Below, in pieces: positions 1 through 1,958 of a stretch of 5,117 bases of DNA (its first letter is position 1; the number at the start of each line of letters is the position of its first letter). The stretch covers positions 1 through 5,117 of the forward strand of contig JALUVB010000304.1 of the NCBI GenBank assembly GCA_027021085.1. Reading direction: 5' to 3'. A model generated the notes under the pieces. That model had not been told where the DNA came from. It was given only the letters and a program-made list of their open reading frames with translations, and searched no databases. This DNA comes from a bacterium (GTDB taxonomy: Bacteria; CAIJMQ01; JAADFP01). The translations under genes were made by a program, and so were the position numbers.

Positions 1-554
1 CTAATTACCCGAAGGGTTTTTCCATCTTTTTCTCTTATTTTGTAAAGGGTTACTCCCCAAATTTTCTTCCCCCGGATTTTCCTGATGAAAACTACATGTC
101 CCTTAAAATTGTCCAGGAATACACCCTCTTCCAGGAGGAGTTTTCCCTTGCTGTAGGTTAAAGTCTTCAGCCTGTAATTGGCCATGGGGACGATATAGAG
201 AGAGAAGAAAAGCAGGAGTATAGAAAGGAAAAAGGCAAGGGGGAGAAAGGGAAGCAAGACGTTTCCTTTTCTTATCCCGCTTGTTTCCAGGGAGAGAAAC
301 GCTCCTTCTCGCTTGGCTTTCCCCATTATGCCCATTATCCCCACCAGGAAACCGCAGGAAAGGGCATAGGGGAAAGAGATGAGAAAAATTAGTACTACTA
401 TCCCGTAAAGAAGGGCAACTTTTACCCCTTCTTTTCCTAAGATTCGAAGAAAAGGGAAAATATTTCCTATGACAAAGAGAAAAAAGAAAATTCCCCAGCC
501 CAGGAAAAAGGAGGGAAGAAATCCCTTGAGCAGGTTGCGGTAAAGAGTTTTCAT
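1..554 (-). CDS. LptF/LptG-family LPS export permease, N-terminal part (cut by left edge)
   Basis: This open frame reads from an ATG at 554 down to the left edge without a stop, giving 184 codons; the C-terminal part lies outside the window. By family knowledge, LptF and LptG are the inner-membrane permease halves of the LptB2FG ABC transporter, which extracts LPS from the inner membrane and passes it to LptC/LptA. Seen here: a short basic N-terminus, then hydrophobic spans at about residues 14-36, 46-77 and 99-122. A cytoplasmic loop between spans 2 and 3 carries the family-typical pattern KREGAFLSLETSGI (81-94). P123 and N126 (PMAN) close the third span. A polar, beta-rich stretch from about 137 fits the start of the periplasmic jellyroll domain. 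The complement reads AGGAG at 569-565, 10 bases before the ATG, a slightly long spacing. The gene diverges from the rph operon. The sequence does not decide between LptF and LptG, since the two are hard to separate from an N-terminal half. Confidence 0.88.
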   Translation of the reverse strand, partial: MKTLYRNLLKGFLPSFFLGWGIFFFLFVIGNIFPFLRILGKEGVKVALLYGIVVLIFLISFPYALSCGFLVGIMGIMGKAKREGAFLSLETSGIRKGNVLLPFLPLAFFLSILLLFFSLYIVPMANYRLKTLTYSKGKLLLEEGVFLDNFKGHVVFIRKIRGKKIWGVTLYKIREKDGKTLRVI

Positions 555-714: not shown

Positions 715-941
715 CCAGGATACCAGTACTTTATTTAAGAAAGTAGCGAGTAGTTAGTAGCGAGGGGAACATTTTAGACCTTAGACCATAGACTTTAGAC
801 TATAGACTGGGAGATAGTGAACAGTAAACAGTAAGCAGTGAATGGTGAATGTTGAGAAAGTAGCGGGTAGTTAGTAGCGAGGGAAGATAGTAAACAGTAA
901 ATAGTAAACAGTGAATGGAGAATGGTAACTCGGTATCCTGG
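715..941. repeat. 10-bp perfect inverted repeat flanking most of the heptamer block
   Basis: CCAGGATACC at 715-724 is the exact reverse complement of GGTATCCTGG at 932-941. The two arms enclose 207 bases that hold nearly all of the 7-bp-period repeats. The match does not extend on either side: 714/942 and 725/931 do not pair. The right arm is also part of the ctGGTa-type octamer series at 928-969, so the symmetry may come from the repeat sequence rather than mark element ends. No transposase or target duplication is visible. Confidence 0.5.
738..924. repeat. Composite 7-bp-period minisatellite block (several heptamer families)
   Basis: The block is built of heptamers of different families. 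Family A, AGTAGCG/AGTAGTT/AGTAGCG, lies at 742-762 and again at 859-879. Family B, (A/T)TAGAC(C/T), has five units at 774-808. Family C, GT(A/G)AA(C/T)(A/G) and close variants, has five units at 817-851 and five at 890-924. A 29-base segment at 738-766 recurs at 855-883 with a single difference (749 against 866), 117 bases apart. The first C array, a TTGAGAA unit at 852-858 and the second A array run in one continuous 7-bp phase from 817. No coding function is likely: a minus-strand open frame through it encodes only the repeat. Short heptanucleotide tandem repeats are known from cyanobacteria (STRR); I do not recognise this set. Confidence 0.85.
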
Positions 942-969
942 TTCCCTGGTAATCCTGGTTTCTCGGTAA
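928..969. repeat. Degenerate 8-9-bp direct repeats with a CTSGGT core
   Basis: Directly after the heptamer block come ACTCGGTA, TCCTGGTT, CCCTGGTA, ATCCTGGTT and TCTCGGTAA in tandem, sharing a CT(C/G)GGT(A/T) core with a period of 8 to 9 bases. It looks like a further unit type of the same composite array, with a different period. The second and fourth units share TCCTGGTT exactly. Confidence 0.6.
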
Positions 970-1187
970 AGGGATAGATTTCGCAGGAATGATAATAAAC
1001 CGGCTCTACCTGTCATACCTACCTGCTTTCCCCCGATATCCGTCGGGAGAACGGCAGGGCATCTTGAACAGTTAACTTTAAAAGTCGCACATGGTGTGAG
1101 GGAAATAATGGTTTTTAAGCATTTGCCCGGATAAGTTACTCCGTAGAAGTTGTCTCTCTCTGACCATTCTGCTTTTACCCTGCTGCC
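970..1187. other. Non-coding stretch upstream of rph
   Basis: I see no convincing gene here. It contains an imperfect hairpin (annotated separately), a small inverted repeat CACA-tgg-TGTG at 1088-1098, and an 8-codon frame at 1108-1134 (MVFKHLPG) with a GAGGG six bases before its ATG. I do not call that frame a gene. TTTCGCAGGAATGA at 979-992, read on the complement as TCATTCCTGCGAAA, resembles one arm of the dispersed TCATTCC-type repeats of many bacterial genomes, but its partner arm is missing. No tRNA, riboswitch or Rho-independent terminator is apparent. Confidence 0.4.
1022..1058. repeat. Imperfect intergenic hairpin (REP-like)
   Basis: CCTGC (1022-1026) pairs with GCAGG (1054-1058). 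Inside it TTC (1028-1030) pairs with GAA (1049-1051), and CCCGA (1032-1036) pairs with TCGGG (1043-1047) across a six-base loop. That is 13 pairs in 37 bases, interrupted by small mismatches and one bulge. Neither strand has a T-run after the stem, so it does not look like a terminator. It may be a remnant of a dispersed palindromic repeat. Confidence 0.5.
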
Positions 1188-1196
1188 ATGCTAATC

Positions 1197-1222
1197 TTTA
1201 CCTGTAAGAAGTGTGATAAAAT
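1197..1222 (+). promoter_or_regulatory. Predicted extended -10 promoter for the rph operon
   Basis: TGATAAAAT at 1214-1222 matches an extended -10 element: TG, one base, then TAAAAT, five of six to TATAAT. A weak -35-like TTTACC lies at 1197-1202, with only 14 bases between, so the extended -10 would carry most of the recognition. The transcript would start at about 1229-1230, which is the first base of the preferred rph ATG, suggesting a leaderless mRNA. The element lies inside the longer possible reading frame from 1188, which argues against that longer start. Confidence 0.45.
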
Positions 1223-1229
1223 ATGGGAT

Positions 1230-1958
1230 ATGTCAATAAGAGAAGAGCGCAGCAGGAATGAGTTACGGCCTATAGAATTCCAGGTAGGTTATTTAATTCA
1301 TCCCAAGGGGTCCTGTTTTGTAAAGTGGGGTAATACCTGGGTGATTTGTTCGGCCCAGGTAGAAGAAAGAGTTCCTGCCTTCCTGCATGATACCAGGACT
1401 GGTTGGATAACCGCTGAATACAGCATGATCCCGGGAGCAACAGACCCAAGGATTGGGCGGGAGCAAGTACGTACGGGAGGAAGGACAAAAGAAATACAGA
1501 GAATGATTGGGAGGAGTTTGCGGGGAGTAACTAATCTTGCCTTGTTGGGGGAGAGAACCATCCATATTGACTGCGAGGTAATCCAGGCAGACGGCGGCAC
1601 AAGGATGGCATCGGTAACAGGCGGGTTTATAGCACTCATTGAGGCAGTAAGCAAGTTAAAAAGAGACAGAATTATTACCCGCTCGCCCATCCGGGAATAT
1701 CTGGGAGGGGTAAGCGTGGGCAAGGTAAAGGGAGATTACCTGCTTGACCTGAATTATAATGAGGACTATCAGGCAGAGGTGGACATGAATGTAGTAATGA
1801 CCGAGAGTGGTAAATTCGTGGAAATACAGGCTGCTGCTGAGGGATATCCCTTTTCTCGGGAAGAAATAAATACTTTCCTTAATCTTGCTTCTCAGGGAAT
1901 TGATGAGGTTATTCGAAAGATGAAGGAGGTTACAAAGGATATATGGATGGATTCCTGA
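1230..1958 (+). CDS. rph: RNase PH (tRNA 3'-end processing phosphorolytic exoribonuclease)
   Basis: RNase PH removes nucleotides from the 3' end of tRNA precursors using inorganic phosphate and releasing nucleoside diphosphates; it acts in the cytoplasm as a ring of dimers. The product from 1230 has 242 residues, against 238 in E. coli. Family signatures in order: MSIREERSRNELRP at the N-terminus, GWITAEYSMIPGAT (58-71), GGRTKEIQRMIGRSLR (83-98), QADGGTRMASVTGG (119-132) and EVDMNVVMTESG (183-194). R85 and T124-R125 correspond to the phosphate-binding residues, and D179 and D185 to the metal-site acidic residues. The frame is open further upstream to an ATG at 1188, adding MLIFTCKKCDKIWD. I prefer 1230: the shorter protein aligns with relatives from its first residue, neither ATG has a Shine-Dalgarno sequence, and a -10 element lies between them. 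The 3' end overlaps truB by 16 bases. The start is less certain than the identity. Confidence 0.95.
   Translation: MSIREERSRNELRPIEFQVGYLIHPKGSCFVKWGNTWVICSAQVEERVPAFLHDTRTGWITAEYSMIPGATDPRIGREQVRTGGRTKEIQRMIGRSLRGVTNLALLGERTIHIDCEVIQADGGTRMASVTGGFIALIEAVSKLKRDRIITRSPIREYLGGVSVGKVKGDYLLDLNYNEDYQAEVDMNVVMTESGKFVEIQAAAEGYPFSREEINTFLNLASQGIDEVIRKMKEVTKDIWMDS
1923..1930 (+). promoter_or_regulatory. Strong Shine-Dalgarno for truB, inside rph
   Basis: AAGGAGGT at 1923-1930 closely matches the anti-Shine-Dalgarno sequence. It lies 12 bases before the ATG at 1943, longer than usual, but no in-frame ATG, GTG or TTG lies closer. A second ATG at 1947 is in the rph frame. The site sits in the last codons of rph, which fits translational coupling. 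Confidence 0.7.

Follow-up and report, generated by a model that had tools for sequence, protein, structure and literature searches.

The heptamer block at 738-969 of the window (the whole stretch of 5,117 nucleotides that was analysed, contig 304 of its assembly) is most likely the interior of a MITE-like, non-autonomous element, which would have been moved in trans, captured the heptamers it now carries, and been altered afterwards by slippage; we give this reading a probability of about 0.8. It follows from the presence of inverted ends with heptamers strictly inside them, which points to a MITE-like element with a composite heptamer minisatellite as its cargo. The family is characterised by terminal inverted repeats (TIRs) of the sequence AAYRCCATGTGCRACTTTT that start at TA, by conserved subterminal segments, and by a fixed fill in the order A-[E]-B-C-[A-C]-D-palindrome. 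The element in the window is now about 370 bp long and is inserted between two divergent genes, between the starts of an lptF/lptG-like gene (minus strand) and of rph (plus strand), the latter heading a truB-ribF-apbE-rnfC run (Table 1). The source genome is a 1.93-Mb draft, 93.9% complete and in 307 contigs, and the copy numbers given here are minimum values in this fragmented assembly because many arrays lie at contig ends.

Table 1. Features of the element and its neighbouring genes, in positions of the window.
Feature	Position	Strand	Basis and remarks
lptF/lptG-like gene, divergent left neighbour	3..554	-	Pfam PF03739, E 2.2e-24
Putative left terminal repeat remnant and subterminal segment (GTACTTTATTTAAGAA)	726..741	+	Placed on GCGACTTTTCTTTTGAA by MAFFT alignment to seven two-ended copies; too decayed to match alone
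Module A1 (AGTAGCG/AGTAGTT) and linker AGGGGAACA	742..771	+	Sequence; units AGTAGCG/AGTAGTT/AGTAGCG at 742-762; linker also present in copies elsewhere
Module B, five (A/T)TAGAC(C/T) units, and linker GGGAGAT	774..815	+	Sequence; TRF 773-808; units at 774-808, covered by about 90 matches in sampled contigs
Module C1 (AGTGAAC/AGTAAAC/AGTAAGC/AGTGAAT units)	816..858	+	Sequence; TRF; AGTRARY-type units span 816-850
Module A2 and linker AGGGAAGAT	859..888	+	Sequence; units at 859-879; 855-883 repeats 738-766 with one mismatch
Module C2	889..930	+	Sequence; TRF
Module D, 8-9-bp CTSGGT/CCTGGTA series	928..969	+	Sequence; TRF; follows C in other copies too
REP-like, palindromic part (TTCGCAGGAATGA...; CCCCCGATATCCGTCGGGAG)	970..1052	+	Aligned copies
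Right subterminal segment GGCAGGGCATCTTGAACAGTTAACTTT	1053..1079	+	Kept in most of the seven two-ended MITE copies
Right terminal inverted repeat, CACACCATGTGCGACTTTT on the minus strand, one mismatch to AAYRCCATGTGCRACTTTT	1080..1098	-	Motif search; alignment of copies
RNase PH gene (rph), divergent right neighbour	1188..1958	+	Pfam PF01138/PF03725

A period of 7 dominates the block. Self-identity across 738-969 was 0.564 at lag 7, 0.468 at lag 14 and 0.360 at lag 21, while every other lag up to 30 gave 0.19-0.34, and in 2000 dinucleotide-preserving shuffles of the same segment the lag-7 value had a mean of 0.273 (sd 0.030) and a maximum of 0.369. The original prediction of at least three unit families together with an 8-9-bp CTSGGT series was borne out: the A, B and C heptamers and the D series can be read from the sequence between 742 and 969, and TRF listed the B, C and D arrays of the window as separate arrays. 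The 29-base segment said to recur with one mismatch was likewise found, as AGAAAGTAGCG(A/G)GTAGTTAGTAGCGAGGG, at 738-766 and 855-883, the two copies being 117 bp apart and differing at one position. A single 7-bp phase from 817 to about 886 had also been proposed; the register does continue, but the AGT core is offset by one base between C1 (816) and A2 (859), which means that this part of the block is not one uninterrupted array.

The end of the feature, first set at 969, has to be moved outwards. Coverage of the window by copies from the genome climbs at 735-755 and continues beyond 969 to 1020-1058, a few copies matching as far as 1097, the site of the terminal repeat. The right boundary of the window copy is at 1097-1099, where it ends in this repeat; the minus strand carries ACACCATGTGCGACTTTT near 1097, and GA is found at 1098-1099 where the flanking TA would be expected. 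At the other side the left terminal repeat has lost its outer half, and the position of the left end is a putative one, taken from the alignment of copies. A single listed ORF (795-1016, minus strand, 73 aa) crosses the block; it had no match in Pfam and probably does not represent a gene. ORFs of this kind arise because most minus-strand units are without stop codons.

A reading of the block as a structured RNA was dropped, since an Rfam search of the block gave no match and its folding was no better than that of shuffles on either strand (z about 0.8). The same results count against a regulatory or post-transcriptional element, in which the heptamers would serve as protein-binding sites or function at the RNA level, as has been proposed for TAACTGA in Beggiatoaceae. 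The intergenic position of the arrays, the frequent placement of their edges at gene ends, and the location of the window copy between two gene starts would all suit such a role, but no promoter excess of note was seen and array content at orthologous sites is not conserved, so that this explanation is regarded as very unlikely.

Similar sequences are dispersed over the genome. BLAST of 738-969 returned 78 matching stretches from its own genome, mostly with the same module order, 20 from a same-genus genome (G001), and no more than three from any other relative; plasmid relatives of the block were also considered, and no plasmid match was found by BLAST. The suggestion that a block present only once would be a local slippage product does not apply here, because 78 similar stretches exist in the genome, with the recurrent order A-B-C(-A-C)-D. 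Within 575 kb of this genome's sequence, on contigs partly chosen for having matches, there were 124 lag-7 arrays against at most six for any period other than 7 and its multiples. Transitions from module B to C were counted 55 times and from C to B once, while A to B occurred 26 times, C to A 29 times and C to D 25 times. Short non-repeat linkers are common to different loci, indicating that the composites were copied as units. In alignments of the copies, gaps of exactly 7 bp, or one unit, are the most frequent (54, versus 18 at 6 bp and 17 at 8 bp), so slippage appears to act on top of dispersal. Slippage and a cassette spreading between genes had been offered as alternatives at the outset. 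The cassette is well supported, by dispersed copies of which a subset has transposon-like inverted ends enclosing the heptamers; slippage is supported as well, as a second layer, by the 7-bp indel peak.

Of the 124 arrays in this genome, 114 contain AGT or ACT, and AGT-core arrays of period 7 were detected in 63 of 386 genomes. A universal AGT core was nevertheless rejected, as the cores TGA (about 33 of 193, by hand count), AGT (about 24) and GAT (21 of 193) occur elsewhere at similar rates, and the core is thus genome-specific. Period 7 as the sole unit length was rejected as well, with period-8 AGT arrays present in 25 of 386 genomes; in several genomes dispersed AGT-core arrays have a period of 8 in place of 7, and some genomes seem to prefer one unit length. 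The mechanism first suggested, one that sets unit length and not sequence, is possible: period 7 is overwhelmingly favoured in the source genome, but the period-8 arrays of other bacteria are of the same AGT type. Four heptamer families in the source genome share the AGT (ACT) core and differ in the base that follows (AGTA.., AGTG/A.., AGTC.., AGTT..). Every such unit includes a stop codon on one strand or on both, and a run of 21 bp therefore closes all three frames.

Pure local slippage would explain the arrays as having arisen in place from short seeds, their likeness being convergent because slippage favours 7-bp AGT units. That copies differ by whole 7-bp units is in keeping with this, as is the abundance of genome-specific heptamer arrays in unrelated bacteria (the AGT and GAT counts above). 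Independent slippage cannot, however, give linkers, subterminal segments and terminal repeats that are common to different loci and stand in a fixed order. It is considered highly improbable, and as the whole story it is refuted by these shared non-repeat parts.

The terminal repeat AAYRCCATGTGCRACTTTT occurs 43 times in the genome at up to three mismatches, versus 5 times for the reversed control, and inverted pairs of it are present at seven loci other than the window, 166-312 bp apart. These loci lie on contigs C23, C33, C42, C82, C280, C291 and C307. Alignment of these seven two-ended copies gave the arrangement TIR-CTTTTGAATGACGRATAAT-A-B-C-D-palindrome-GGGCAGGGCATTCCGGACAGTTAACCTT-TIR, and the shorter ones are without modules B, C and D. 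The window copy aligns to them over its full length, differing in the lost outer left end and in an extra second A-C pair. For 32 distinct terminal repeats, 100 bp or more of sequence was available on either side; heptamers occurred within 300 bp on the inner side of 27 of them, and on the outer side of none. The base preceding AAYRCCATGTGCRACTTTT is T in 37 of 38 copies, which means that nearly every terminus starts at TA, and TA is found at both ends in nearly all pairs; as a sequence pattern, this fits what would be expected of a TA-duplicating transposase. The flanks of several loci were located in G001, where the intergenic DNA is too diverged for an empty site carrying a single TA to be identified to the exact base. 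As in MITEs, the copies are short (under about 600 bp), numerous and intergenic, and contain no transposase ORF; inverted ends are present on both sides at the seven pairs, and in the window the right end alone is intact.

Terminal repeats (about 38) are far fewer than arrays, most of which have no recognisable end; such arrays may be decayed copies or an older heptamer layer. Two further observations concern the surroundings of the termini. At C130 8761-10189, a rubrerythrin-like gene lies between inverted terminal repeats 1.4 kb apart, possibly representing two broken elements, or else a larger unit that can have a gene as cargo. Beyond the left terminus, three elements are flanked by similar DNA (TTGATGTCAAAGATATAGTTTTC...), which suggests insertion into another repeat, or a longer version of one.

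The elements were most likely moved by a transposase that recognised the ends in trans, probably one of the TA-targeting IS630/Tc1-mariner type, after which replication slippage or recombination would add or remove heptamers within each copy. No DDE_3 (IS630-type) transposase was detected in this genome, and G001 has one broken fragment. No terminal-repeat pair was found to enclose a recognised transposase, either in this assembly or at the checked loci of other genomes, and ORFs beside single termini in other genomes, inspected by eye, included no recognisable transposase. The interval C130 7942-10189 was considered as a long autonomous element and rejected, as it contains ordinary genes (HAD-like and rubrerythrin-like, named from translation). 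The autonomous parent may be missing from this draft assembly, and a non-autonomous family can also persist after its parent has been lost.

A different class of enzyme is invoked by a REP/RAYT-type mosaic, in which palindromes (GCCTGCGAAAGCAGGC and similar) would be mobile via Y1 (HUH) transposases and the heptamers would hitchhike. The genome has two Y1_Tnp genes, and REP-like palindromes are found immediately beside heptamer modules and nested in one another. Arrays also favour gene 3' ends, as do REPs (PMC3733652), the median distance being 76 bp from the 3' end versus 142 bp from the 5' end, a preference that is only indicative because the gene calls were crude ORF calls. Such a mosaic could account for arrays without terminal repeats, and as most arrays have no recognisable end, a second route via REP-like palindromes is possible. 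On the other hand, long inverted repeats starting at TA, and not a tagged palindrome, form the boundaries of the window copy and of 27 or more termini elsewhere, and G001 displays the same mosaic with no match to Y1_Tnp. On balance, this explanation is thought unlikely. Nesting of palindromes next to heptamer modules was seen in the form of CCTGC...GCAGG within GCCTGCGAAAGCAGGC.

The history of the MITE-like element can be approached through G001, the one same-genus genome compared, the sequence of which was examined in part. It shares the A, B, C and D heptamer vocabulary, and has only one good terminal repeat, with no heptamers beside it. The presence of heptamers together with a single, cargo-free terminus indicates that the heptamers probably pre-date the expansion of the element, and were captured or expanded inside it; the vocabulary would already have existed in the genus before the element multiplied. 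The subterminal sequence CTTTTGGGTAA at the G001 terminal repeat is also found in one copy of the source genome. Orthologous intergenic sites usually hold arrays in both species, with differing content, and at one such gap (C255) an array is present in the source genome and none in G001.

Several known repeats resemble parts of this arrangement. The STRR heptamers of cyanobacteria, such as CCCCAGT, are dispersed tandem heptamers with several families per genome, as here, but with other units, and to our knowledge they are not bounded by inverted terminal repeats. In Streptococcus pneumoniae, BOX is a short element built of modules, in which internal repeats of about 45 bp vary in number, and RUP is a TA-targeting, IS630-derived MITE. 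The present family resembles BOX in being modular and variable in internal repeat number, and RUP in being MITE-like and TA-flanked, but it differs from both in sequence, and from BOX in having heptamers in place of repeats of about 45 bp. Pneumococcal repeats are treated in PMC3049150. Closest to the present family are the heptamers of Beggiatoaceae and cyanobacteria, described below, and BrickBuilt and MITE464/PgRS of Porphyromonas gingivalis, the latter being MITEs with inverted-repeat ends and a leader and tail around a tandem-repeat array; BrickBuilt has about 19 copies, all intergenic and many without one or both ends, and related MITEs of this species have common ends and different internal repeats (PMC4596501). 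Inverted-repeat ends around a tandem array, intergenic location and many end-deficient copies are common to BrickBuilt and the family described here. Each BrickBuilt or MITE464 element, however, has one 23-bp (or 41-bp) unit, whereas several unrelated 7-bp units in fixed order are found here, and BrickBuilt has IS5-type GAGACC ends and a known parent IS, in contrast to the TA-flanked AACGCCATGTGC ends, for which no parent IS was found. With its 7-bp units and AACGCCATGTGC ends, the element does not belong to BrickBuilt.

TAACTGA and other intergenic heptamers have been described in Beggiatoaceae, Cyanobacteria and Bacteroidetes, with no transfer mechanism evident (PMC4679880). Those are likewise intergenic 7-bp direct repeats in many sets, with mixed regions, strain-specific placement and 7-nt indels, but their unit sequences are different, and some of the present arrays are enclosed in a transposon-like element; no TAACTGA family was present in the unit list of the 124 arrays of this genome. 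A literature search for the terminal sequence gave unrelated matches only, and the open-licence papers searched contained no case of several unrelated heptamer families arranged in a constant order between TA-flanked ends. Minisatellites within MITEs were already known from P. gingivalis (PMC4596501), and intergenic heptamers from Beggiatoaceae and Cyanobacteria (PMC4679880).

The exact terminal motif extends to other phyla, being found in Desulfococcaceae HSG8, Desulfonema magnum, a Chlamydiae MAG, Parachlamydiaceae, Pedosphaera, Nostoc, Hydrocoleum and Dictyobacter, often as MITE-sized pairs (92-422 bp). The shared ends may reflect recent transfer, an old family or convergence. In the Chlamydiae MAG, another half-repeat in inverted orientation lies 46 bp from the end of many copies. 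The termini of HSG8 and D. magnum (Desulfobacterota) enclose different tandem repeats, of CACAAAGG type, which were found inside 13 of 20 termini and outside one in HSG8, and inside all four and outside none in D. magnum. A tentative interpretation, to which we give somewhat less than even odds, is that one end family (TAACGCCATGTGCRACTTTT) serves across several phyla as a vehicle into which each lineage loads its own dispersed tandem repeats, heptamers here and CACAAAGG-type repeats in Desulfobacterota. If true, TAACGCCATGTGCRACTTTT ends would act as a general carrier, sowing minisatellites over genomes. Heptamers in tandem occur between the genes of many bacteria, and some heptamer arrays can now be viewed as the physical cargo of a transposable element with recognisable ends, a possible vehicle between genes, so that their spread becomes testable by means of these ends and of insertion polymorphism.
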